64,000 nt of DNA from Fennellomyces sp. T-0311 (lineage: Eukaryota > Mucoromycota > Mucoromycetes > Mucorales > Lichtheimiaceae): contig JALLLT010000015.1 in NCBI GenBank assembly GCA_025266875.1, positions 868,001-932,000 of the forward strand, in the 5' to 3' direction. Position numbers and translations under genes: made by a program. Under the pieces are notes generated by a model. It had not been told where the DNA came from and did not search any database. It was given only the letters and a program-made list of their open reading frames with translations. Positions 1-64,000 of the stretch are shown here, in pieces. How positions within the stretch are numbered: the first letter of the stretch is position 1; every line of letters starts with the position of its first letter.

Positions 1-310
1 AACCTACGGATCTGCTTCAAAAGTCCGCGTGAACGTCTCAAAACTTGTGTATGTACCCACGCCAAAGGTTCAGATGCCTGGCAAAAAAATGTGCGCAAAC
101 TGCACAGATTGGCACTACCATATTAAAGATCTTTATAGTTACACATCTGCGAGTTGGTTGCATTGTCAAGAGGTCACGGGTTCCTTTCTTTTATGTATTC
201 GTGTAGATTATAGATCGATCGTAAAGCATAATGTATTTGTCATTATATAGCATCTATATAAGAAAGCAATACTTCTATCATATACTAACCTAGTAGAAAG
301 GATATAACTA

Positions 311-29140: not shown

Positions 29141-30211
29141 ATGCCACTTAGCGACACAACTAATACACAGCGTGAAAAAAGTCAAGAGTACGACCAGTTC
29201 ACTTGTGGTCGCATCGTCGGCTTACACGAGCAAGGTCTATCATTTGGTGGCATAGCAACCAAACTTGGCATTCCCAAGGGAACTGTGTCAAGTATTTTCC
29301 ATCGTTGGGAGAAAACAGGGACAACGTTGCCCAAGAAGAGAAGTGGAAGACCATGTACCATAATTGAAAGAGGCCAAAGAGCGCTTGTAAAGTCTGTACG
29401 CGCTGATCCATTCAAGCCATATGCCGCGCACCAGGTCACTTTAGAGCAAGTTGGTATCAACGTCCACCGCAACACAATTATCAACTATTTGGGGAGGCTG
29501 GGGTTTGGTTCGTACTCTCCTGCACGTAAGCCTGCACTTACGACGGCGCACATGCAAAAGAGGCTGGACTGGGCTCGTGAACGTGCCAACTGGACCGTGG
29601 ATCAATGGCGCAATGTCATTTGGTCTGATGAATCGCGATTTACCATGTGGGGCAATGATGGAGGGGCCCGTGTACTTCGGCGCGAAGGCGAACGGTACGA
29701 CCGGAACCATATTGTACCAACGGTAAAGTTTGGCAAAGGTTCGGTTATGATCTGGAGCTGTTTCTGGGCAGGAGGCTTCGGACCTCTTGTAATTTTGGAT
29801 GGCGCCGTGGACCAGGATGCATATGTCAACTGTTTGTCAGACAATTTCCTTCCGTTTCTTCGCGCTCTGTCTGATGATCATCCAGAACGTGAATTCATCT
29901 TTCAAGAGGATGGTGCCAGCTGCCATACAGGGTCATACACAACCTGGTATAAGACTAGATGGCAGATTAGAGGGTTTGACACATGGCCCGCACAAAGTCC
30001 TGATCTGAACCCGATCGAACATGTTTGGTGGGCTCTTGAAAGGCGGATTCAGAGCCGAAGACACCACATCAAAAATAAGGAACAGCTAAAGGTCTGTCTC
30101 CAGGATGAATGGCGAAATCTAAGCCTTGAGCTTGCAGAAAGCCTCGTTGCTAGTATGCCATCTCGCTGTCAAGCTGTGATTAATGCCCAAGGTGGCCACA
30201 CCCATTATTAG
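29141..30211 (+). CDS. Tc1/mariner transposase, DD35E
   Basis: Single-exon ORF of 356 aa with no stop or frameshift. The N-terminal part (20-75) has a helix-turn-helix (GLSFGGIATKLGIPKGTVSS) and an SGRPCT linker motif; a second HTH lies at about 98-125. The catalytic triad is Asp163 (WSDESRF), Asp257 (FQEDGASCH) and Glu293 (SPDLNPIEHVW). The 35 residues between the second Asp and Glu make it DD35E by direct count, one more than the usual DD34E. It would bind the 28-bp ends and catalyse cut-and-paste into TA sites. The ORF starts 107 bp inside the left end. Confidence 0.95.
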   Translation: MPLSDTTNTQREKSQEYDQFTCGRIVGLHEQGLSFGGIATKLGIPKGTVSSIFHRWEKTGTTLPKKRSGRPCTIIERGQRALVKSVRADPFKPYAAHQVTLEQVGINVHRNTIINYLGRLGFGSYSPARKPALTTAHMQKRLDWARERANWTVDQWRNVIWSDESRFTMWGNDGGARVLRREGERYDRNHIVPTVKFGKGSVMIWSCFWAGGFGPLVILDGAVDQDAYVNCLSDNFLPFLRALSDDHPEREFIFQEDGASCHTGSYTTWYKTRWQIRGFDTWPAQSPDLNPIEHVWWALERRIQSRRHHIKNKEQLKVCLQDEWRNLSLELAESLVASMPSRCQAVINAQGGHTHY

Positions 30212-42388: not shown

Positions 42389-44488
42389 CTAATTTTCGGT
42401 ACCCGCGCGCGCCTTTTTCTTTTGATTCAACTCCCCCATGATGCTGTATGATGTAAGAAGGCTTATCCTTGAACACGCAATGATGGAAAGGCTCTTGAGG
42501 TTTTCCATAACACCAATTAAGCACCTGACTGCGTCAGCAGTGATCTTGGGAAGTTTCCGAAGAGTAATACTCTGTAAGCTGGCGATATCAACAAGCTTAT
42601 GCAACACAAGGTCCGTTACTGTGTCCATATCCTGAAGATAGATGGTCCTCAATGTGTTGAACTTGGATACTTGCTCAACGAATGCCACAAGTCCATCAGT
42701 TGTTAATCCGTTGCATTTTTCGATCTTGACCAAACTTAGAGTTTGAATCTTCGATAATGCCTCGAGCAACGAGTCAGTGACATTGTCGCATTTTTCCAAA
42801 TAAACCTCCCGCAACGATGAGCCTTTGCCTCTGTCAGCGTGACAGTTCAGAAAGTATTCAAAGCCATCAACATTGACGGCTTCCATACTGAGTAATGTAA
42901 CTTGATTCAGATAAGGAAGTTTCAGTAATGCTTCCTCGAGCACATTTCCTGTAACATTGCTAAGGTCTTGGATTGTCACAGATTGCAGCGCCTTGCAGTT
43001 CTGCATCATCTTCGCAACGATCGTGTGCATATCCATGGAAACGCCGAAACAATAAGTCAAATACTCCAGTTTTTCCATTTTGATCTTGGTCAAGCCATTC
43101 CACCGCCGTGCTATGTTGTTCTTGTCGTCCGATAATGAAAGAACCGCAGACTGCGACGTCAATTGGGACTTTTCGATGAGAGGAATCATATGTTCAGGCT
43201 CCATATCCTCCGTATCGTGGATATAGAGCTCTTGTATACCAGGGATGTTGTCGTCAAACGCAGATAAAGTATTAGGTGCCGGGCCGTTGAAACCAAGGAC
43301 TTTGAGTTTCGGACAATATTCATTAATCAGCGTTAATGCGTCCGCTGAACACAAGCTTACACGCAGCTGTTGTAGATGTGGGCACCGGCGAATCATTTTA
43401 CCAAGCAGCTCGGTTGTGATGAGCGTTGATGTTTCCAGATCCAACGATTTGATGTTGCACTGGCTTGCAATCGGATTTGCGTCGCTGAATTCCATGTTCA
43501 CGGTATCTGTGTGATACCAGAGGTGTTCCAGTTTCGGGCAGGCAAGTAATATACTTTCCAAGTGGAGATTTTGACTGCCTTCGGAAACCTTGAGCATGAG
43601 CTCCGTGAGTGTATTTCCTAGGCGCGACAGGACAAGCAGGAGCTGGTCTCTACCTATGTACGAGGCTTTCGCGCAAAACAGGTTAGACTAATGCATGGAA
43701 AACTTAACATGACACTTACATCTCATATTGAGGTGTTGTACGCTGCTGAATTGTCCATTAATTAGGGCCTTGGTAGCTTTTTGCGATGTATCTTCGTCGG
43801 CATTGATCACCTCAAGCTTCTTGGTATGCTTCCCGACCATGGGGATAAAGCGAAAGATGGGGTTGTCTGCCATACTAAACTCCAAAGCGACCTCCTTCCA
43901 TCCCAGCGCATAATCTGCAAGGAGTTCACGCCACCGTTTCGATACATCCATGCAACATATATGACTGGCGGTGATGTCGAGTTGATCGATTATGATATAC
44001 ACAATATCAATTGGCAACGCCGTAAGGAAATCCACGCGCTTATCGAGCTGCTGTTGAGATGTTGCCTTGTACTGTTCTAGAGATGTGTATTGATTGTCGT
44101 CGATCGATACAGTCTCCAAGCCCTGATCATACACCTGTATTGCTTGACTGTGTTTCCCTTGCAGCGCAAGCGTATCACCGGCACGCAGGTACCCAGTAGC
44201 TGTCCGTGGTGTGCATTCGATCATTTTGTCCGCTGCTTGCATTGCTTTGCTGAACCTGCCCTTCATTGCGTATGCATAGGCGCAGTTGTCCAGGACCATT
44301 GTTTTGAAAGCGTCAAGATTGGTCAAAGCTTCCAACGAACTGTCGATCGCAGCATCGTAATCAGTAATCTCGAGCGATTGCAGACTTGACTGGTACAGCT
44401 GATACCACTTGTCATTCACGCCTTGCTGTGGATCGTGGGATTTTCGTTTTTTCGCGAGAGTGGGTTTTTCGTCTGATTTGCGTTTCAT
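42389..44488 (-). CDS. TPR/F-box/LRR protein, tandem copy A
   Basis: Two exons (44488-43720 and 43653-42389) give 677 aa. Residues about 27-150 form TPR-like repeats (for example AYAMKGRFSKAMQAADKMIE and GKHSQAIQVYDQGLE). An F-box follows at about 160-205 (LTALPIDIVYIIIDQLDI, then CMDVSKRWRELL). The remaining 450 residues are leucine-rich repeats with LxxLxL and CPxLxxL patterns. The layout resembles fungal Pof3/Dia2-type SCF adaptors (TPR-F-box-LRR), so substrate recruitment to an SCF ubiquitin ligase is inferred. Copy B next door has the same length, domain order, intron site and phase. The start at 44488 is the first ATG. Confidence 0.85.
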
Positions 44489-44851
44489 GGTGACAAGTGT
44501 GTTGTATGCCAAGATCGGCTCGCGCCCACCCCGCTTTTCGAGCTTAATTTCTGGTGTTTCTGTTGAACTGACAACATATGAGCTTCCGACTTTTGCAAAT
44601 CGATTTGTACTATTATATGTGATCTACAAAGCAGTTCGTCTGTAAACAGAACAAAAGTTTCTATCAAATGCTAAGTTGAGCGAAGTCGAGTCAACCTAGT
44701 CAATACACATATATAGACGATGCGAAATAGAGGAGAGTGGTATATACTATGTAGCATCCACTACACGTTCTTTAAAGAAACATAACAAACGGACAAATAC
44801 CCAATGGTTCTACAGAAAGACTATATAGTAGTATGACTTTATTCTAAATCC
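44489..44851. other. Short intergenic region between the tandem F-box genes
   Basis: Promoter side of copy A and 3' flank of copy B. No coding or RNA feature seen. Confidence 0.55.
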
Positions 44852-46935
44852 CTATGTTATAGCTCGTACTCTATTCCTAAAATTAAATCTCTCCATAATC
44901 TGATGGGATGCCTGCATGCTGATTTGGGAGCAACCGAGAATATTGAGCTCGTTGAGACTCTTCATACTAGCTGCTAAATCCTGGACTGCCTTGACAGTAA
45001 TGCCACTGAGTCTCACGAGACCAAGGCGCCGTAAGCTGTGTATGTCGTGAATAGAATGCAGCACTGTATCGTTAACTGCGTCCATATCAGATAGGTGAAG
45101 ATTGTCCAGAACGTTGGTGAGGGATATCGTCTTAATGAATTTCACCAATCCAAAAGTGGTTGGCCCGTTGCAGCTGTACATTGCAAACTCCTCTATTGTT
45201 TGAACGGTTGCTAACATTTCAAGCAAGGAATCGGAAAAGTCGTCGCATTGATTTATATGCACCTTCTTTAACGACGAAGCCTTGCCTTTGCGAGCGTGTG
45301 TGGTTAGAAAGCGATTGAGACCAACAACGTTCATCTTTCTAATAACAAGTAATTTCAATACCGCCAAGTCAGGGAGTGCCAGCAAGGCTTCTTCAAACTC
45401 GGACCCTGTCAGGTTTTCTAGGCTCCGGAGGGATACAGATTGTAACGCCTTGCTGTTTCGTATCATCTTTCCAACGGTTGCGTGCATATCCATAGAATTA
45501 GAGAAGCAATACGACACATGTCGCAAATTTTCAAACTTGATTTTAGTCAGTCTATCCCAGCGTTCCGTAATACTCGGCCCATTGTCAAACACCGAAAAAA
45601 CGAAGGATTGTAACGCAGACGGCGATTTCTCGAGGATCTGAATCAAGTGCGCAGGATCCATACCCACCGTTCGGTGAAGTGTGAACTGTCGCAAACCAGG
45701 TACATTGACTTTGGGAGGAGAAACCAAGTCCGGACGGATACCATTGAACCCAAGCAATTCCAAGTTAGGGCAATGGGTGACAATCGAATGCAATCCATCC
45801 GGCGGACATAATTTGACACACAGCTCTTGTAGTTGTGGACATCGACGAAGCGTTGCATCAAGGACCTCCGTTTTGACCACATCTGCGATAAGAAGCAACG
45901 ATTTGATCTTGCACATGTTTGCTGACGCACCCAAGTCACCATATTCCATGTCACCTTCACCAATAAAGTACCGGAACGTTTCCAACTTTGGGCAGATGCG
46001 TAATATGGTTTCAATAGGGTGCCCCAGGCTACTTTTGCGAATATCCAGCATCAGTTTTGTGAGCATGTTCCCCAGCTCGGTTAGAATAAGCAAGAGCTGC
46101 TGTTGGCTCACTTCGCATCCTTTTGTCTGACGTTAGATCAACAGCAATTCTACGTTAATTACCACTTACTATGCATGTGGAAGTATTGGACGTTACGGAA
46201 TACTCCGCTCATGATAGAGTTGGTCATCTGTTGCGATTTATCTTTGTCGAGGCCTAGCGAGCCAAATACCTCGGCATGTCTACCAACCGTTGGGAGCAAT
46301 CGAAAGACAGCACTATCCGATGAGCTGCGCAACATAATATCCTTCCATGCCAACGAGTAATCAGATAGCATCTGCTGCCATTTCTTTGACACATTCATGC
46401 ATTCTACGTCACGATCCGTTACGTCAAGCTGATCGATTACAATATTCGCGGCATTAGGTGGCAGTAATGTAAGGAAATCCACGCGTTTATCGATCTGGGC
46501 CTGTGATAATGCTTTGCGTTTCTTGAGAATTGTGTGCTGCTTGTCATCGGACGACACCTTCTCTATGCCTCGATTGTATACTTGTATTGCTTGTTTGTGT
46601 TTTCCTTGCAGGATGAGCGTGTTACCAGCGCGCAGGTACCCGGTTGCTTTCGTTGGCGCGCGCACGATCATTTCTTCAGCTGCTTGCATTGCCTTGTCAA
46701 ATCTGCCCTTCATTGCGGAAGCACAGGCGTAGGCATCCAAGAGCATTGTCTTGAAACTGTCGAGGTTGGTCAAAACTTTCAAAGAACCGTCAATCACAGT
46801 ATCATAATCGGCATTCGCAAGTGATTGTGAAATCGCGCGATACAACAGAAGCCACGCAGCTGACACATCGTTGTAAGGGTCCGGTGCTTTTTCTTCGGTT
46901 GACTGATTGGGTTTTTCTTCCGAGTTGGATGTCAT
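44852..46935 (-). CDS. TPR/F-box/LRR protein, tandem copy B
   Basis: Two exons (46935-46170 and 46119-44852) give 677 aa, exactly as long as copy A. TPR-like repeats (ACASAMKGRFDKAMQAAEEM and GKHKQAIQVYNRGIE), an F-box (LTLLPPNAANIVIDQLDV, then CMNVSKKWQQML) and C-terminal LRRs occur at the same places. The single intron sits at the equivalent codon in phase 1. The two proteins are clearly homologous but well diverged, so the duplication is not recent and both copies have been kept open. SCF substrate adaptor function is inferred as for copy A. Confidence 0.85.
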
Positions 46936-52865: not shown

Positions 52866-53383
52866 GTGTGTGTGTGTGTGCGCTGTGTGATATATATCCG
52901 TTAATTAACGAGGTGATCATTTTATCGCGCCAAGAATTTCTGGTGTCGCATACATACTGTCCTGATGCGCAAATCGAAGCGGATTGTGGGGCGGATGGCG
53001 TGAATCGTGAGAGAGACAAAGGGGGGAGCGACCGCCGATTCAAGGTCTTGGGTGGAAAGGAAAGGAAAGACGACAAAGAAGTTTTTTTTGCGGGGAAATG
53101 AGTTCCCAGATGCTCACGAGCCAAGATGGAGCAAAGAAGTGAAATTATAAAAAATCAAAAGGGGGCGGGGTTAAAGCTACTGGGGTAGACACCCATCCAA
53201 TGATATTAAAAGTTAAGCAACCTGCACTTTGGAAGTTAACGTCGGGGCTGGGTACCTTGTGTTGCCCTTGTGTAGCGCATATGCGCAGATTGTCACTGCT
53301 GGCGATAACATTTTTGACATGGGTTCTTTGCCTTGCACTTTTTTTCACTCGGTCTACTTCCTCCATATTCGACCAATACACGT
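52866..53383. other. Intergenic, upstream of CYRI
   Basis: Contains the short TG/CA tract touching the CYRI start codon and G-rich sequence near 53.0-53.2 kb. No ORF with coding character. Confidence 0.5.
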
Positions 53384-53769
53384 ATGAATAACCCTGATCA
53401 GCCTTCAAAACAAAAGCGCCGAGGTCCTGGCAGACTTCCAGGAAGCACGAGCAAGAGAAAGATGAAAACAATGGTAGCGATAATACTGGTGTTGAGGGCG
53501 ACGATGATCCCATTCCGGATGATGCACAGACTCTAAATGATGACGATCAAGCCTGCGGGGAAAAATACGGCATACTCGCGAAATACTTTTTGGATATTCA
53601 GAACCAAATCAAAGGCAAAGATGGTGGTTATTCATAGGAGCATAACTTGGATGAATTACGTAATGAACGCGAGACGTCTTGCGAAAATGAGCCATTTGTC
53701 AATTTATTTCGAGAAAATATAAGCACTCTTGGTGTGCATGGACGACCGTCAGCCTTATCCATATATTGA
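53384..53769 (+). pseudogene. Decayed ORF upstream of the Fanzor gene, basic then acidic
   Basis: An ATG at 53384 opens a frame reading MNNPDQPSKQKRRGPGRLPG, an AT-hook-like basic start. A shift of frame near 53455-53465 is needed to continue into an acidic stretch (DDDPIPDDAQTLNDDDQACG) and then KYGILAKYFLDIQNQIKG. A TAG at about 53635 interrupts that frame, which then stays open to a TGA at 53767 (HNLDELRNERETSCENEPFV). One frameshift plus one in-frame stop argue for a broken gene. No family is recognised. Its position directly before the Fanzor hints at a partner ORF of an old element, but that is speculation. Confidence 0.4.
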
Positions 53770-54207
53770 CACAATGCAAATGAGTGGCGCATCACTAAAA
53801 GCTACTTTCTTGGCGTTACGCGCTTTGTGGAGATGAGAATGGGCAATCGTGCACTTGACCACATTCATACCCTGCTTTTTTCCCACTCATGTTTCAAATA
53901 GGCAATGTACAGAGGAAGGAGAAAATGGAGACAATCTTTCACGCGTGTCCTTAAATTTGCATTGTGTCAAGAGCACGCAATTACCGCTTATGGTAAAGCA
54001 AGCATCGCCGCTTGCCGCCTTGTGCTACTCAAGGCGGATGATATCGAGTAATGTCATGCCGAGGATGAATAAAGCTCATGGATAATGATAGAAAAAAATA
54101 TTGACACTGTGAATCATGTGGTCATAAAACGTGTTTGGAAAGAAAATAAAACTTCGTTACGCGTTCTGTCTGTTTTCTTTCTTTGTTCTTCTTTCTTGCT
54201 TAACCCG

Positions 54208-57200
54208 ATGAATCCTGACGATCCCCCGCAACAAGTGCCATTTAATGGCTTCCTTGGTCTACAACAAAGGACAGTTACGCGAAACTGTGCCTTAAAGCCC
54301 TTGATCAGACCGCAGTACCGTTATTTGATCGTAAGCATGCACTGCTGTTTTACGTCATGATGCTCATTAAATGGGAAGCTCGAATTCCGTGCTTTAGCGA
54401 ATGTCAACTCAACCCTCCGCAAAGACGCGTTGAATATTGTGAACCTTCATGTGCGCAGGTTCCTCGAAGGCCACTTCCAAGCGATGCCGCCACTTTTCGA
54501 CCAAACTTTCTGGGTGAACGTGTACAAGCTTGCAGGACTGCACATTGGAGAGCAATTTCCCACCAGACTGAATATCGTGAGTGTTCCTGCATCCAACTGT
54601 AGGGCATTGCATACTAACGCCTATGCAGGACGACGACATCCGCCAGACCTTTGCATTTTTCAGGATTTGTCAAAGAGATCCCGATACGAACCAAGGTATT
54701 ACATGAGTATTCAACGCGAGTAAACTGCTAAAATATAAACTCTTCTACAGCTTTGTACCAACCAGACACTGTTGGTGACGGTACACTGAACAACGCCATG
54801 GGGAGTAATTTCGCCCGCCAGGCGATTCAGAGTAAGGCTTCCATTGGACTCATAGGCAAAAGTATGCTAACTATCGGATAGATGTCAAGGAACATCTGCG
54901 AAACACGCCCAAGTACATATCGAAATTCTGGAGCCAGCGTCTCGAAGGGTTCATCCGCAACAGAAACGAGCTGAAACGAGCCGTACGCCTGATTACAAGC
55001 AACATTATCAACCACATCCCAGAACCACCGCCACAAGTCGAAGCACTGAACATAGTGGAGGAGTATGAGTAAGTATCACGGACTGGTTAGGAAGACAAAG
55101 CTTAGCAGCATAATCATTAACGTAAACAAGAATGATGCACGAAGCTTTTGAGCTTTGGCTGGCTCAAGCTCCCAACATGTTTCATCTTTACGCCAGAGAC
55201 ATTACACTTGACTTGGCCGAGAGAATACTACGGTTCAGTCGTTGGTTACTGGCACTGTCAGAGCACTCGCTGCAACAGCACCGGTGGTCACTGCTTCCTG
55301 TCGCGAGCCATCGGGTCACTCACTTCTTAATCTGCACCCGGACACTTGCATACATAATTAGGCGGGCATGGCTTGCCAACAATCACGTACCTGTGCCGAA
55401 TCTGCTTCTCAGACCAGTAAGTACCTTTGCAAAGTCAAATCAAGATATTAACTGCAATATACAAAAGAACGGCCAGTTTCGGACCAACAACGAGATCATC
55501 AGGGACACGGGCCAGCAAAACATGAACATCCGTCAAGAAATTTGGGAAGAGGTTTTCAACATCGATCATGTCCAACGGAATCGTTGGGCGATAGGCGATG
55601 ATGGTAAGTGCGAGCAGACGTCAGCTGCTAGGATATTCTCAACAGTAACCCATATCTTGTACGGCAGTGAACCAGCTGTTGGACACGAACCCAATAACGT
55701 TCGACTACAGCATTCGCACCGACGGAGCCTTTACCCACGTGCACTTCAAGAAGCCGATGTTAGCCGATATTGGTGAGTAATTATAGCAGAGGATACTTGG
55801 GAGTCTGGCTAATCATTTTGTTCAGAACCCCAACCGTCAACAAGACGAGAAATACGACGGATGGCTGACAATGCTGACTTGGGAGAATGGACAAAAGGTG
55901 TTTACCTTCTCGACAAGGAGCCAAGAGGGTTGGGTGGGGAACGACTGAATAACTCACGGATTGTGGGAATCGATCCAGGTAGGTCTGATATGCTCTATTA
56001 TCGCATCATTCTGGTTCTTATCAGACATGAATAGGTGTCTCTGCAATGGTCACGGGCACAAGTACGCAAGAGGAAGAACCGCAACCAGGGTTGTGGATGA
56101 ACCAATTCTCCGTTCCAACCCGAAACTACCAGTAAGCAATTCGAGGTCATATTATTTGAACCTTGGTAACAAGCAAATCTATAGCGCAAAGACCAATGTA
56201 TTTTGGGAATATAAGCAAGAGCTTGTCAATCGTCGGAAGTTTCGAATTGAGCAGGAATACGATATACTTAGAAATAACTCTGCGAATGTATCCGAGTCTG
56301 CAGACTTTGCAAGGCATATCTTTGTGCTCAGCATGATACGCACACGGTAAGTTGATCCAAAAAGTGTTGATACGTATATAATTACTGAGAAAGGATACAG
56401 CATGAAAATGTTCAATGAACATTTTAAACATAGAGAGATCCGTCGGACTATGTTTTCAGCTCGCCAGAGCACAAAGCATCAGATAGTAAATCAGGTGCTA
56501 GGCGTAAACCCCCCAATTCCTCCAGTATGCCATATCCATCTAGGACGCTTTTAACTTGCTGACCTGACCAAACGTATTCTTTTTAGGGAATGAAGTTGTT
56601 ACCCATCCAGGTTACAACAAAAAGACAAAGAAAGCGTTGGCATGCCAATCGCCGCGACTTTGCCCGAGAACAAGGCTGGGAACAAAACGATCTGCCGACA
56701 ATCGCTTTCTATGGAGCGGGCGATATGCCTCTGATCCCCGGATTTGCCCCAATCCCTCACGTTGTAAGCCATAACGTCCACCTAAACTCGTTGTCGATAA
56801 TAACTACTAACCTATCAACTAAATAGGAACTTATCTTACTCCTTTCCAAATTCGCTTTGGTTATTTTAACCAACGAGCACAATACCAGTCAGGTGCACTC
56901 TTCATGCGACACACGGCTCCAACGGGTCCAAGGGACCTATATCCATTGTCCTCACATGTAAGGTAGGAACTTTATTCGGTGTTCCATTAATTAACAAGTT
57001 ATTACTAGCATCAAGAGACGTCGCGCTTTGACACTTGCTGGAAATCGGGGCAGGAAGGTCAAATGGTGTGTCGATGAAGCCGGCGTGTTTCTGCACCCAC
57101 AAGCAGATTGCGAACAAGGACAAGCGCGCAGTAAGTTTCAAGCATTTGGAATTCTGCTTTCTTCTTACGCATACTTTTAGATACAGAAATTTGGTCCATA

Positions 57201-57422
57201 AAGCAATGCAGGAACGAGCTTGCTCACGGGCGAGTTCTTGTAAGTGGGGATACAGTTGTACCAAGCTCAATCTGATGCCGCTTATTGTAGTTTGTCGACA
57301 GAGACAAGAACGCGGCGTGCAATATGAGACGCATTGGGATTCAATACATGCTTACGGATGGAGCCCCCAATTACCGCCCAAATGCTCTTGTACGGCCACC
57401 CCATGAAAATGAAAGGAATTAA
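54208..57422 (+). CDS. Fanzor: eukaryotic TnpB-like RuvC nuclease
   Basis: Seventeen exons (54208-54330, 54379-54576, 54629-54695, 54751-54831, 54882-55068, 55131-55416, 55468-55603, 55668-55772, 55826-55978, 56035-56131, 56185-56346, 56401-56524, 56587-56763, 56827-56957, 57009-57130, 57181-57239, 57291-57422) join with no stop to 779 aa. The N-terminal 440 residues hold helical parts, a WSLLPVASH block and FDYSIRTDGAFTHVHFKKP. Split RuvC motifs follow: GIDPG (Asp444), LTNEHNTS (Glu649) and DRDKNAACNM (Asp741). A Cys-rich segment lies between II and III, as in TnpB zinc fingers, but its first ligand position is His (QVHSSC). TnpB and characterised Fanzors are RNA-guided DNA nucleases, so that activity is inferred. 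It sits between CYRI and a 2H gene with no terminal repeats noticed. Confidence 0.88.
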
Positions 57423-57566
57423 TAAAGAATTCCACAGCTTTAGTTATTGCGTCTGGCGCATGTCTGGGGACTGGCCACCCCCAGGCATGTTAGCTGGGCC
57501 CAAAACTAGCTGGATTAAGCTTCTAGTCCGCAGGCAAACTGAAGGTGGCTCTTGGTTTTCCAACAA
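57423..57566 (+). ncRNA. Candidate guide-RNA (omega RNA) scaffold region
   Basis: TnpB and Fanzor guide RNAs usually start at or just after the 3' end of the nuclease gene. This 144-bp gap between the Fanzor stop and the next ATG holds an 8-bp hairpin with a 9-nt loop (57462-57469 with 57479-57486; core CTGGGG/CCCCAG) and a repeated TAGCTGG motif (about 57491 and 57507). Location plus structure make it the best candidate, but nothing in the sequence proves that it is transcribed. Confidence 0.25.
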
Positions 57567-58253
57567 ATGACGAACTCCTCGACAAGGGAACTCATTCTCT
57601 ACTTGGAACCTATGCATGGTTCCCCTTTCCGGATTCATGTCGACAATTTCATTGAAAATTCCCGTATGCGATTCCATTTTACCACAGCCTGCAAATACGA
57701 TTGCCATTCTAGTATGACAGGTTTCTTCAGCGTCCAGCAAAACGACCTACAGCAAATCATCGACACGTTGAATACGATTATACATAGCAAAAGTACGTTG
57801 CTAGGACGCGATACGCCCAAAGTAAAAACAACACCGTTACTCGTAAGAAAGGCGACCGCAATCATAGACCAAGGGACACAACAACCGCGGGTCATTAACG
57901 AGTTTCCTGTCCACCTTTTATTACCATTGGCAGCACCGGAACCATATCATAAAGTAGTGTCTGAATTTGCGGAAAAATATCCCGCCATTCGTCCCAAAGC
58001 AATCAACCACATCAGTCTTGGGTATTGGGATGAGCCACATGCAACACCCGAGCAAAACGCAAAGTGGAATCGGTTGGTGCTGGAAGATCGTTTGATGGAA
58101 CGTATGTATGAAGCTGCACGAGAGACGTTTAGAAATGATATTAGCCCTAACGAATGGGATATCGTGTTGTATGAGCGAACGCTGAAGGGTGTAAACGTTG
58201 GCAACCGACATGAATTCATGGAACGGGGCCGATGGCCAGCAACTCGCCAATAA
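57567..58253 (+). CDS. 2H phosphoesterase-like protein
   Basis: Single-exon ORF of 228 aa. The ATG at 57567 is the first in frame. Two H-x-S motifs with hydrophobic surroundings occur 100 residues apart: His47-Ser-Ser49 in YDCHSSMTGFF and His148-Ile-Ser150 in INHISLGYW. This spacing is that of the 2H superfamily (RNA ligase/cyclic phosphodiesterase-like). A basic tail with WDIVLYERTLKGV completes the fold. Such enzymes hydrolyse 2',3'-cyclic phosphates or related bonds in RNA metabolism; the exact substrate is unknown. It starts 144 bp after the Fanzor stop on the same strand. Its stop lies 4 bp from the ARMC7 stop, so the two transcripts must overlap at their ends. Confidence 0.65.
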   Translation: MTNSSTRELILYLEPMHGSPFRIHVDNFIENSRMRFHFTTACKYDCHSSMTGFFSVQQNDLQQIIDTLNTIIHSKSTLLGRDTPKVKTTPLLVRKATAIIDQGTQQPRVINEFPVHLLLPLAAPEPYHKVVSEFAEKYPAIRPKAINHISLGYWDEPHATPEQNAKWNRLVLEDRLMERMYEAARETFRNDISPNEWDIVLYERTLKGVNVGNRHEFMERGRWPATRQ

Positions 58254-58257
58254 AAAG

Positions 58258-59008
58258 CTATGTCTGAAAGTAATCCGTCAGAAACAGCGTCGCAATCGTG
58301 TTGATCCGCTTATCCGTTTGGGGATCCTGAAGACGAAGCAAGCCCTCTTTCAGTGCGGGCGTTACGATGACTAATTGTACATATGTTAGCAAAGGATACA
58401 GCAAGACTGAAACTCTTGCTACCTGGCCGAGAAGATTCATTTACAAGGAACATGAGCGCAACCATTGCATTAATAACGGCGTCGGTGGTACAAGGCCGTT
58501 GGCTGTTGCTCACAACGATAGCAGCAATCTTTTCAATATTCTCCGGCTTTGACAGGATATAGTGGCTGTGCTGTGGATCTATACCATCATCTGTCAGCAT
58601 AGTCTTCTGTGTTGCTAAAATAGAAACGAACCTCGACAAATATTGGTTAGGCCACCCATGCCGAACTCCTTCAAAAGTGGATCAGGTTGCTCTATGGCAT
58701 CTGTCCAACGAGTTCCGCGTTAAAATATAATTATATCCTGGTAGATGCGTTTATACTTACCAAGAAACACGTCGACTGCATAGACCTGCCAAAGCCAATC
58801 GTGATTGATCGCATCGTATGCAAAGTTCGCAAAGGGTTGGCCAGCACTTGCTGTTTAAGCCTCTAAACATGAGTAAGCACAATGCTAATAAGGTAGTTTG
58901 AAACAAGCATACCCAGATCTTTTGTCGAATTGTACTCTTGCACCAAATTGGCCAAGAAAACTGTTCGCGATCGGGACCGGGCTGCACACGATGTCGTTTA
59001 CGGGACAT
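58258..59008 (-). CDS. ARMC7: Armadillo repeat-containing protein 7 homologue, with an apparent frameshift
   Basis: Five exons (59008-58913, 58850-58761, 58700-58632, 58578-58423, 58370-58258) encode about 175 aa. ARMC7 blocks are clear: LANLVQEYNSTKDL, ANFAYDAINHDWLWQVYAVDVFLD, LLKEFGMGGLTNICRD, HYILSKPENIEKIAAIV, VINAMVALMFLV and INTIATLFLTDYF. ARMC7 is a small nuclear protein tied to the U2 snRNP/SF3b assembly. In exon 1 the ATG frame (MSRKRHRVQPGPDREQ) and the LANLV frame differ by one base; a T missing from the run at 58957-58960 would explain it. All later exons are in phase. Either the sequence has an error there or the allele is broken. Its ATG lies 55 bp from that of the divergent PPR gene. 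Confidence 0.8.
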
Positions 59009-59063
59009 AGGAAATAATTTCTGAGTTTGGCCAGGATACGCTTTTGTTGTTGTTGTCACGACA

Positions 59064-60879
59064 ATGCTTCGATCGCGCTTGATCTGTGCAGCATGTTGCA
59101 AACGTCTGTTCCTTACAGCATCAAAGAGTACGTGACAGCTTCCGATCATGACATGCAACTGCGATTAACATTGATCTTTATACAGCTCCTGCCACGCGAC
59201 CGCGTACAATATCATACACATCACGATTCAGGAACGTCGACGCTCTTACTCGTCCTTCTCCGCATTCAAGGAGCAACGTCAAGTGGCTACTAAAAACGCT
59301 GTACTAAACGAATATGCAAGCAATGAAGAGTTTCTGGAAGATATCAATAAAAAGATGCGACAAACGCTGGATATGGCATCTATCCTTAGTCTAACGGGAA
59401 AGTCCACCGTCAGCAAGATACTAGGTCTTGCAAAAAGACTGGATGAAGCAAACATTCCTTACGACGCAAACATCTACGAATGTCTCCTCAGCGCTTATTC
59501 AAAGGCAGACGATATCGACCAAGCAATGGCATTATTCGATCATATGCGAAACAACAACGTCCGACCCACTGTCAAGTTTTTCCACAACGCGCTTCAGGTA
59601 TAACAACACATCAGACACACCAGCTTAAACTGACACGTATGGATTAGCTCGCATCACAATTCGCCGATCCCAAACTGCAAGCGTGGATATTGGAAGAAAT
59701 GGAACGCGTGGGATATAATCCAAAGATGAGGCCCGTGTACGGCCATATGCTCACCTGCATGCGGAACAATGGCGAAATCGAACGGGCATTTGATACACTG
59801 GAAAGGATGAGGCTGGAAGGCGTCACCCCAACACTGCACATGTATCGCCAGCTGGTGGATATGTGTGTCCAATTCAACCATCCGGATATGGCTTATGATA
59901 TGCTGAAAGGAGCAGCAATACTGGACACCTTTGCTGGACGCTACAACTACATGTATATGAACCTACTACGGTCTGCGGCATTAAATAGCTCGGTAAGATT
60001 GGGCTGTGTGTTTCCGGTACAGGTACTAAATGCCTGTTGTAGCACGAGATTGTGAAGGATATGTGGAAAATTGCTGTTTTGGACCACAACATCGCGCCGG
60101 ACGAAGGGCTTTGTCACTATGTATTGCATGTTGCGGCGCACTATGGCGACTCAAGTTTGGGTAGCGACGTGATCCGCGTGATTGGGAAGCTTGGATACCC
60201 TTACAAAGAAAGCCACTTTGCACCACTGATTGAGGCGTTTGCTGCGACTGGGGACTGGAAAAGCACACTCAAGGTACTTCACTTGATGCGCGCGGCGGGC
60301 ATCACACCAAGTCAAGGCACCGCACGACCTATCGCCTACAAACTCGGGAAAGATGTAGAGGCAATACGACTTGCGCGGGATTCGTTGGCGCAGTTGAAAA
60401 AGGAGGATTCGCTCGATATTCTCGCTTTCAATCTTATCATCCATTCCTTTGCGTACAATAACGAATATGAAGACGCAATGGAAACATTTGGAAGGGCTGC
60501 TGAACTGGGAGTGACGATCGATCTTGAAACAATCCATGCCATCTTGGATGCATGTATCCACGCCGAAGAAGCCGTGATGGGGGCCAAGATATTTGACAAG
60601 TATGCCCATGGGAACCTCAGTCCCAATGCAACCACCTTGAGCAAGATGGTCACTCTCATGTGCACTCAGGATAACTATGAAGATGCGTTCAAGTATCTGG
60701 AGCAAATGAAGTCGATGGGTTTCGTGCCGTTACGCGGTTGCTACTATCGTCTTGTCAAAAAACTGGCAAGTAACCAAGATTCAAGACTTGCAATAGCGCT
60801 GGATGACATGAAGACATGTGGCTATGATGTAACCGCATATTTGCAAGAACATCTGGATAGACATGCTCCTCGTTACTAG
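59064..60879 (+). CDS. Pentatricopeptide repeat protein, probably mitochondrial
   Basis: Four exons (59064-59131, 59186-59597, 59648-59992, 60043-60879) give 553 aa. The start MLRSRLICAACCKRLF, with Arg, Lys and no acid, is a likely mitochondrial presequence. At least six PPR-like 35-residue helical pairs follow, for example IYECLLSAYSKADDIDQAMA, YGHMLTCMRNNGEIERAFD, FNLIIHSFAYNNEYEDAMET and LSKMVTLMCTQDNYEDAFKY. PPR proteins bind organelle RNA and control its processing, stability or translation. The first donor is uncertain: GTGACA at 59132 keeps the frame, but the stronger GTACGT four bases earlier does not. The remaining junctions are standard. Confidence 0.85.
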
Positions 60880-61075
60880 ACAAAGTGCCTCCTAAAATCT
60901 GTAAATAATATACATTTTGTTTATAAAGCGACCTCGTAATTTACGCGATACTATACCTTCCTATCTCCAAGCAGCATGTCGCGTGGGACACCAACGAACG
61001 AATCCCAGCTGTGGATGAAATTGAGGTCGAGGAAATCAAAGCTTCTTACGCGTCCAACAAAAAGAAAGAGTGGCA

Positions 61076-64000
61076 ATGGCGATGGTCAAGCATCGTTTTG
61101 CCGAGATTCACCAAGCATACGCTGCCGACGAAACCGAAAAACTGTGGACGACGTTAACAAACCCGGATTTATCAGTTATTGCGGTCTCTAGCGTCTGTGA
61201 CAAGATTGTTGCCAGTGTACAAGCTGGTTCTTTTCGATTCAAGGACACCATACTCCATTTGCAAAATCTTGTTTTGACCAGCAACAATCGGTTAAAGACT
61301 AGCGTATACCTTCGATCCATTACGTTGCTATTGCAATGCCATGCACAGCTAAAAGAGTTTCACGACGCGATCGACCTTGTTCTGACATCGTCGCCTACGG
61401 GTATTGTACACCCGTTCATTGTCATTTGTCGACAGCGACCCGAACTTGGCGACGATGTTTTCTTTGAGGTGGACTTTTTACTCGCGCAGTACGACGAATC
61501 TTATGACTACAGCTTGTTGGATAGCATGGGTACCTTTTTTGACAGCGTTCTACTGGCCGCGAGCAACGCACAGAGGATGGCACTTCTCCATCGCTTTGCA
61601 AACACTTATCCGTCAACAGCATTGCGCGCCGAGCTTTACTACTATTTAGTCGATGTGCTCCAACGATATCCGACACGAAGGGCCATGTCGTTTTATCTCC
61701 AGTTGGTCGACTATATTTCGACAGTGTTCACGAGCCCCGAAGTCCCGGAAGACGAGCTTCGATCGATTGCCACCACCGTTTTCTATCAGCTACTCTGTAG
61801 AGCATACGATGCTGCTACCTATGGGTACCCATCATTGCCCTATTTACAGCGTCTTGATCGAGTCTACGGAACGCGTGACATATGCAGCGATCAGCCACTG
61901 ACAGCACCCAACTTTTACTTGATATGGACCAGTTTATCCTATCTGTTATTGACTACGCAAACCGTTCATGATCAACAAGTTGTTCTAAAGATGATGCAAG
62001 AAGCTATTCGACGCAATAAATCCTCTGATAAGACTTTGCTTGTTGCGATTCTACCACTTCTCCAAACATGGACAGAAATTGTGGAGAACGATGCAGCAGC
62101 GAAACAGCGCAAGTCATCAACATTGGAGATGCTGGCTCAGGTGACGGAGAATGCATCTATCGAAGTGAAAGATAAAGCAGCAATCAAGAATGATGTAAGT
62201 TAATCGGAGGACTCCCTTTATGAGAGATGCTTGTATAGTAACCGTTGGCTTCAAAAGATGATCCAAGAATTGGAAGAATACGGTGTGACAGGCGCCATGG
62301 CTAATATGATACCTTACCTTTTTCACTTCTTGGACAATCAACTAGACGACACTGGTGTGCCGACAAACTCGGTATCTCATATCCATGCTCTTATGTTTAC
62401 GGCTCCATACGTATTCCACACCAACACCAACATCCGCCATTCTAATCTCAAACGCCTTGCTGACTTGTCGTCTGTTACGACAGGAACATACTCTTTCAAA
62501 TTTTCTGTTTTTTTGCTTACTCTATACCTGATGCGATCCAAGGATATCATGACGAGCGAAACATTCCTGTTCATCTATCATACTGTAATTCCTACACTTG
62601 TTGATGTTAACGATCCAACTACAACAGCGAAAATTCTCCAAACTGTACTCCCTATGATCCAAGGCTCCCATTCATCGCAGGCACGGGGCACAGCCATGGC
62701 CGCAGTTGGATTTAAGACGCTGGTAAGCATCTTTGAACGACAACCGCGAGTATGGCACGAAGTCAAAAGGGCGATGGCAAACTGGATTTTACACCGCAAG
62801 TCAACTCTCCGACCGGATGACAAGTTAGCTATCCAAATGGAACTAGCTGTTCTGACCAGCATGCGCGACCTTTGCAAGACACGCCCTCGAACTTGTGCTC
62901 AAGATATCCTTCCAATGGTGTCTCGCTGCTTCAGTCATCGTCTAATCTGAACGTAGCATCTTTGGCGCTTATCTTGGAAATCATGTGTGCCTGCATAGCA
63001 GCGGGACTTGCGGAACCTCGATCCATGTGGAATGTGGCAATAAGCTATATCGCAGCGTTTGCGATGGAGCGCGAGCAGGATATGATGGTAGTACTATGGA
63101 CAAAGATGTGTGATTTCTTTGCCATTGTGGGAGACGTTGATGAAGGTATGGACCCAAAAGATGGTACCGTTAGTTTTTGCTAACGTGTACTATTCTAGTG
63201 TCAGAATCATATTATGAGTTCAAGGATGATGTCCTTTTCAACTATATTGAACCTTTGATGTCGTCCGAAATCACCAGTATCCGATCATCTGCACTTACTG
63301 CACTATCACACTTTTCGGCTTCGGATATTATGTGTTCTACCGGAAAAGTCCAAGCAGTACACAGACGAAATCGTTGCGAATCCAATGATGCTGATACCAA
63401 GGTTCTTGCACAACTACTTTCGCACGAACTCGACCATATGCGTCGCAACTTGTTCAAGGAAGATGCTCCATCCAAACCAAAGGTAGAAGAAACAAAAGAC
63501 GTCAATACCAAGCGTTGCATAGGCACCAAAGAAGCGGATTTAGCGGGCCGCTTTGTCAAGGCATGGGAACAAGCAGGAACTGCTCCAGGTGTTCGGGCAG
63601 GGTATGCTATTGCAGTTTTGCATACTACCGCGAGTACATGAGTGATCCATCATCTTCATCTAGCGGAATCCATGACCAAAAGCTAAATGGTATCGTTGCT
63701 TATCCATCCGATTGGTGATATCGGTCTCACCGACCATTTGCTGTGTGCGTATATCTTGCCTTTCCGGTGGATATCTCTATTTGAAACGGCACTTGGCTTC
63801 GAAGAATTCGACGCTAGAGACGAAAGGAGCACGGATACTTGACGATTTACAGACACGACTGGAGAAAAGCACGGTACCTGGAACAACTTGCACAACTTTT
63901 TGGCGATAACCGGGTTCACATTGACAGCACATCGTCTGTCACCCTCATTTGGAGCATCATGCGCCGCCAAGCTTATCGATCTCCTGTGTTCAAAATATAT
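61076..64000 (+). CDS. FOCAD: Focadhesin (FOCAD) homologue, 3' end cut by the window; several frameshifts
   Basis: The first exon (61076-62194, 373 codons) is a long helical-repeat region. Further parts run from about 62231 to 63145 and from 63199 on. DUF3730/FOCAD features are visible: helical HEAT-like repeats, LCKTRPRTCAQDILPMVSSL, MWNVAISYIAAFAMERE, YEFKDDVLFNYIEPLMSSEI and ALSHFSA, then GTAPGVRAGYAIAV. Human FOCAD stabilises the SKI mRNA-decay complex. The frame breaks by one base at least at 62918-62924, 63331-63340, 63382-63383, 63616-63619 and 63690-63715, and the first intron (44 nt with TATAG) is out of phase. The 5' exon is intact. It is a real homologue whose 3' part is either badly sequenced or decaying. 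Confidence 0.75.

Follow-up and report, generated by a model that had tools for sequence, protein, structure and literature searches.

The window analysed here is a 64,000-nucleotide stretch of the genome of the fungus Fennellomyces sp. T-0311 (contig JALLLT010000015.1, positions 868,001 to 932,000; C57 in our numbering of contigs), and it holds a 17-exon gene of the Fanzor type. Very probably the product is a Fanzor1-type protein, a predicted RNA-guided DNA nuclease, carried as cargo by a multicopy DNA transposon whose transposase likely comes from elsewhere; a candidate guide-RNA scaffold at the right end of the element and a role for the bases CAA belong to the same reading. The 17-exon frame, the element ends, the end bases repeated in most copies, the presence of about ten loci of the subfamily, and a conserved 3' hairpin are established by the sequence itself. 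A single genome with both Fanzor-bearing elements and Fanzor-less elements that have the same left end is a natural control for the footprint difference described below. The three bases found at the insertion site of most Fanzor copies are also those that would complete the predicted guide RNA, and the Fanzor therefore likely affects where its carrier can last.

The Transposon and Its Copies

Homology among the copies begins near 53164 and stops near 57500, outlining a 4.3-kilobase element (53164..57500, +) whose exact ends, GGC...GGGCC, were set from the insertion footprints. The left terminus, GGCGGGGTTAAAGCTACTGGGG (53164..53185, +), is an imperfect inverted repeat of 57479-57500, matching by eye at 13 of 22 positions. 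A 28-base piece of it has 25 matches in the genome at three mismatches or fewer, compared to 0 for the reversed control. Subfamily A, that of the window copy, and subfamily B share the left end GGC[G/T]GGGTT[A/G]AAGCT[A/C]CTGGGG as well as the right end GGGCC, apart from a few changed bases in single copies. The element also contains a remnant (53288..53631, +) of the 5' part of a gene for a DUF6729 and 3'-5' exonuclease protein, with 76 to 77% DNA identity in two blocks to a locus elsewhere in the genome, L044.

A protein search of the genome returned at least 149 matched stretches, more divergent Fanzor loci among them. Subfamily A has about ten loci, on C57 (the window copy), C114, C109, C172 (twice), C139, C95, and C160, with partial ones on C90 and C118; they share 83 to 99% DNA identity over the Fanzor part and 78 to 94% in separate 5' pieces. 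Six copies were examined, and the frame is whole in three: the window copy, C109, and C172a (that is, two of the five others). C114 has a stop, C172b has lost a splice site and has a stop and a deleted base as well, and C95 has a 281-base insertion. The ratio of nonsynonymous to synonymous change (dN/dS) is 0.18 to 0.32 in all six pairs among the window copy, C109, C172a, and C114, with 7 to 19 synonymous changes.

Gene Structure and Introns

Re-derivation from the splice sites placed the gene at 54208-57422 (+), with 17 exons and 2340 nucleotides, or 779 codons and a stop, and so recovered the frame put forward in a first-pass annotation of this DNA. Exons 1 to 9 (+) are 54208-54330, 54379-54576, 54629-54695, 54751-54831, 54882-55068, 55131-55416, 55468-55603, 55668-55772, and 55826-55978; exons 10 to 17 (+) are 56035-56131, 56185-56346, 56401-56524, 56587-56763, 56827-56957, 57009-57130, 57181-57239, and 57291-57422. 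Copies C109 and C172a have identical exons. All 16 introns are GT-AG and 48 to 64 nucleotides long, and retention would produce a stop or frameshift for 15 of them.

By spliced alignment of a predicted protein, 15 of the 16 introns agree in place and phase with the introns of a subfamily B paralog that is 52% identical. The 16th also coincides with the subfamily B gene when judged by eye in the sequence, the public gene model reading past it. The introns therefore seem to predate the split of the two subfamilies and to travel with the element. Their presence in diverged subfamilies argues for DNA transposition and led us to reject a processed or recent gene arrival. With 16 introns carried in this way, richness in introns is not by itself a mark of domestication. 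A related observation concerns the public protein P0002 (mapping to C106: L099, L046), which runs into the 16th intron and is without RuvC-III, though the exon is present.

A Probable Fanzor1-Type Protein

The motifs GIDPG, TNEHNTS, and DRDKNAACNM lie where the first-pass annotation had put them, and they provide Asp444 of RuvC-I (55972..55974, +), Glu649 of RuvC-II (56875..56877, +), and Asp741 of RuvC-III (57303..57305, +). Its proposal of a Fanzor-like protein with intact catalytic residues thus finds support. Four features are those expected of Fanzor1. (i) D444-P-G supplies the DPG motif in RuvC-I by which Fanzors are recognized (PMC10711439). (ii) Glu649 occupies the alternative place (E-alt), a glutamate about six residues ahead of the zinc ribbon, being 7 positions ahead of the first ribbon ligand, residue 656. 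(iii) A TDG motif is present at residues 377-379 of the window protein, and we infer that it sits in the WED domain. (iv) The ends and footprints mark the carrier as a eukaryotic DNA transposon of non-IS607 type, no search having been aimed at a serine recombinase. The predicted structure of a paralog, P0001, rather than of the window protein, has a Fanzor fold, which rests mainly on residues 20-345 and 481-537.

The zinc ribbon is altered. His656-x2-Cys659 (56896..56907, +) replaces its first CxxC and Cys726-x5-His732 (57207..57227, +) its second, and this H/C pattern is kept across diverged subfamilies wherever the region is present, as would suit a further structural variant.

The close annotated proteins number three matches, or seven in a further search, and all are from Fennellomyces sp. 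T-0311 (Mucoromycota, Mucorales), in line with the first-pass guess of a Mucoromycota host. The first search, which reaches only proteins with common short words, gave the window protein no relative of more than 52% identity, and subfamily A seems to be unannotated among public proteins. A distant relative from Rhizopus microsporus (P0009; 26% identity) was reached through P0008. For P0008 and P0009, Pfam gave weak unrelated rows, and P0009 against PDB gave a single unrelated row (E 0.52). The genome also has 17 matches to PF07282 (L001-L008 and nine other places); L001 shows the context NEYRSSKTCPKC with a canonical first CxxC, and matches of its type may form a second Fanzor-like or TnpB-like group.

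Insertion Footprints with and without a Fanzor

The footprint is taken as 8 bases, the first three being CAA in most Fanzor copies. The eight bases ahead of the left end are mostly CAANNNNN, and the right end is followed by CAA and then the same five bases in 8 of 14 copies, with one more copy agreeing at four of the five. The left footprint of the window copy, found by copy comparison, is CAAAAGGG (53156..53163, +), with AAT ahead of it and TCAA as the candidate target motif.

Does the CAA belong to the transposon or to the Fanzor? It occupies the expected left place in 12 of 15 Fanzor-bearing and 0 of 7 Fanzor-less left ends (p = 0.0007), where Fanzor-less means that there is no nearby match in the protein search, whose counts are lower bounds. 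The left ends were located without CAA in the pattern. Three Fanzor-bearing left ends deviate: C110 has CAT, and in C95 and C139 the CAA is shifted outward by one base. No Fanzor match lies near the Fanzor-less elements, which have the same left end and 5' region; because the seven relatives are without CAA at that place, the motif appears to go with the Fanzor rather than with the ends of the transposon. Bases preceding the CAA differ as well, being T in subfamily A, GCA in all six subfamily B copies, and CCA in a further C138 copy. Left ends on C13, C102, C82, and C132 (CAT, CAG, AAA, and CAA) were kept out of the 15-versus-7 comparison, their cargo not being established, as were C46, C90, C133, C99, and C138b, for which no left end was found in the stretch fetched. 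The right-end pattern contains CAA, and the right ends it located were therefore not used as CAA evidence; most of its matches with two mismatches are due to chance (77 matches in total versus 56 in the control).

What do the Fanzor-less elements carry? The gene at L044 (C123) encodes DUF6729 and 3'-5' exonuclease domains (Pfam was run on this locus only), and long stretches of L097 (C154) and L098 (C128) agree with L044 to about 97%. All three are multicopy elements, and matching 8-base footprints are seen in two of them. No mention of DUF6729 was found in the searched open-licence literature.

A Candidate Guide-RNA Scaffold

The final 72 bases up to CAA are conserved in subfamily A, subfamily B, and a third group. 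This segment, 57432..57503 (+), is a candidate guide-RNA scaffold with a conserved CCACAGC box, a long hairpin, and a terminal stem formed by UUG (57447-57449) and CAA (57501-57503). We infer that its transcript would serve as the scaffold, the guide being the flanking DNA just past it. The predicted folding energy of the 81-nucleotide right end of the window copy is -31.6 kcal/mol (z = -2.13; 6 of 200 shuffles do equally well), and the single Fanzor-less right end that was folded is unremarkable (z = +0.93). Among 22 distinct right ends, the structure retains 90.2% of its pair cells, versus at most 47.4% when it is slid, a comparison biased towards the counted structure, which was derived from one of the 22 sequences. 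None of 500 shuffles reaches the observed number of paired cells, number of doubly changed cells, or covariation score. The UUG/CAA stem pairs in the window's fold and can form in 21 of 22 rows, one with a G-U pair. Four of 30 pattern-matched right ends (C1, C79, C134, and C35:371) were dropped before this count, and the remaining 26 gave the 22 distinct rows; the drop was partly unfair, since 19 of 23 places pair in C35:371 and the 3' half of the hairpin is present in C134. Loci C138:68 and C99:154 gave no right-end match, and an Rfam scan of the window at gathering thresholds gave none either. The third right-end group (C46:562, C90:769, and C133:225) has a UUGGGUC/GACCCAA terminal stem, and its left ends were not found.

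How might these parts work together? The common ends suggest that the element is mobilized by a transposase from elsewhere, perhaps the DUF6729 protein. On the left, the nuclease would cut next to a motif made up of CAA and its preceding bases (TCAA in subfamily A, GCACAA in subfamily B), and the right-side CAA would pair with UUG, closing the scaffold. Exit of the element would leave a healed site, which the Fanzor, guided by flank sequence, would cut next to TCAA; repair that draws on a remaining copy would then bring the element back. This is the course of events in the TnpB model, in which cutting of the healed site followed by repair restores the transposon copy. If insertions that complete the scaffold were selected for, the CAA link would be explained with no need for guided insertion. 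It is quite possible, if somewhat short of probable, that the Fanzor and not the transposase sets where the transposon lasts: insertion would be wide, only CAA-adjacent sites would complete the guide RNA and leave a cutting motif, and each subfamily would have evolved its own extension (TCAA or GCACAA) on unchanged ends. If the CAA link is true, part of the guide RNA would come from host DNA where the element has inserted. The predicted cutting motifs would then be TCAA and GCACAA, and the predicted scaffold about 72 nucleotides.

Weighing the Alternatives

A number of observations weigh against a Fanzor1 nuclease with a scaffold completed by CAA. At the protein level, Bao and Jurka (PMC3627910) give a long motif with a C4 zinc ribbon, in place of which H656-x2-C659 and C726-x5-H732 are found, the remainder of the motif being present by eye. 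The absent C4 ribbon was not treated as decisive, as PMC10711439 credits only "many" TnpBs and Fanzors with a ribbon. The P0001 model has a mean predicted local distance difference test (pLDDT) score of 54.7, falling below 50 over residues 385-480 and 538-775, which cover all three RuvC motifs. Neither the window protein nor the family profile has a PDB match by sequence, and the sole Pfam match of the window protein, to PF07282, is sub-threshold (14.0 versus a cut-off of 26.3 bits), as is the only one of P0001. At the insertion sites, footprints do not match in 5 of 14 copies, the window's included; the partner expected for its left footprint, CCCAAAAGG, was searched for in the window, and none was found. 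Fanzor-less C151 has a left CAA one base further out and a right flank that starts with CAA, and if a one-base shift is allowed, the contrast persists at 14 of 15 Fanzor-bearing versus 1 of 7 Fanzor-less left ends (one-sided p 0.0006, calculated by hand). Both ends are seen in five Fanzor-less elements, two of which have matching 8-base footprints, GTAGATCC and AAAAAATT, and the other three, C79, C151, and C128, do not. At L044, the string common to both ends is 11 bases by eye (GCCGTAGATCC), making 8 a lower bound there. As for the hairpin, besides the bias already mentioned, changes on both sides occur in only 2 of 23 pairs, with 16 further pair types, and neither count beats shuffles; RNAalifold retains 11 of these pairs, without the terminal UUG/CAA stem; restoring the four dropped right ends lowers the pairing cells to 85.3%; and a hairpin near a transposon end could instead act as DNA.

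Could the CAA preference belong to the transposase of the Fanzor elements, the right-end CAA being part of the element or a fixed target choice? This is possible, although we incline against it. CAA in 12 of 15 insertions is what a target-choosy transposase would produce, patterned footprints, ATAATTNNNN(N), are described for the MCi-2 elements of Mucor (PMC3627910), and C151 has CAA near both ends with no Fanzor match. Set against this are the seven Fanzor-less left ends, none with CAA at the expected place, the two Fanzor-less elements with matching footprints, both without it, and the bases preceding CAA, which vary by Fanzor subfamily on ends that are alike. Two related ideas were also considered. 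Crypton-like insertion by a tyrosine recombinase was raised for the CAA at both ends, and the identical five-base repeat at both sides in 8 of 14 copies favors ordinary target duplication. A five-base footprint with an element-owned CAA, our first reading, was dropped for the 8-base footprints of the two Fanzor-less elements, while staying conceivable.

The remaining alternatives concern the gene itself. That it is a dead passenger, merely carried and with loss of the C4 ribbon as a sign of decay, is unlikely: the ribbon ligands have indeed changed and three of six examined copies are broken, yet diverged subfamilies keep the H/C pattern wherever they have the region, the window copy retains its triad, and all six pairs show a dN/dS below 1. 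Very improbable is a long-resident, domesticated Fanzor serving the host, towards which the first-pass annotation leaned on account of the 16 introns and a setting between conserved genes. The intact triad, a dN/dS below 1, and introns older than the subfamily split could be read that way. However, about ten subfamily loci share the transposon outline and footprints, and domestication was rejected on these grounds of copy number and footprints; other mobile copies have the same introns, and the right flank is a duplicate. On these facts, neither the long residence read from introns and setting nor a host use is supported for a gene that is transposon cargo.

Relation to Known Fanzors

Mucorales Fanzor transposons, multi-exon Fanzors, the patterned MCi-2 footprints, and the prediction that a footprint forms part of the scaffold have all been described (PMC3627910, PMC10711439). 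The present family, its ribbon, and its Fanzor-linked footprint were not found in the searched literature, which comprised the available text of open-licence papers. SpuFz1, GtFz1, and PpFz1, the last from Parasitella (Mucorales) (PMC10432273, PMC11423790), are 11 to 14% identical to P0001 in structural alignment. The solved Fanzor1 proteins differ from the window Fanzor in the ribbon, which is H/C here, and in their motifs, CATA, TTAA, and ATN (PMC10432273, PMC11423790), versus the candidate TCAA or GCACAA.

MCi-2 of Mucor circinelloides (PMC3627910) resembles the present family in its Mucorales host, near-identical copies, patterned footprints, variable 5' regions, and a conserved, Fanzor-bearing 3' part. 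By description, the only level at which the two were compared, its footprint is 11 to 12 bases, ATAATTN4-5, in contrast to CAAN5; a footprint of the type ATAATTNNNN(N) is absent here, with CAANNNNN in its place. One MCi-2 subfamily has a partial Crypton gene, where the window element has the DUF6729 remnant. The SfAV Fanzor1 element (PMC10711439, PMC3627910) is likewise a non-autonomous DNA transposon with Fanzor1 as sole cargo, and its guide-RNA scaffold is predicted to take in the footprint. It differs in having a 4-base TTAN footprint and clear inverted repeats; the present element has a weak inverted repeat, and no more than three bases of its footprint would join the scaffold. The CRe-2/3 Helitrons of Chlamydomonas (PMC3627910) also have a multi-exon Fanzor1 in a mobile element, with ten exons and Helitron ends as opposed to the 17 exons found here. 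Footprints of Fanzor1 elements have been predicted to join the scaffold (PMC10711439), and the present case seems to fit that prediction and to add a footprint constraint that is present only where the Fanzor is.

Other Features of the Window

The right flank (57504..64000, no strand) duplicates contig C114 at about 100% identity and lies at the end of C57, which stops 59 bases past the window. The right flanks of C57 and C114 are identical, the element bodies differ at 44 places between 54258 and 57294, and the window's right junction has one extra A relative to C114. A misjoin at the repeat, or a recent exchange or duplication, is the simplest reading, and genes annotated in 57504-64000 may be counted twice. 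Elsewhere in the window, an open 356-residue frame at 29141-30211 resembles by eye a Tc1/mariner transposase, and two adjoining pairs of similar frames at 42389-46935 (-) resemble, also by eye, duplicated F-box and leucine-rich-repeat genes.
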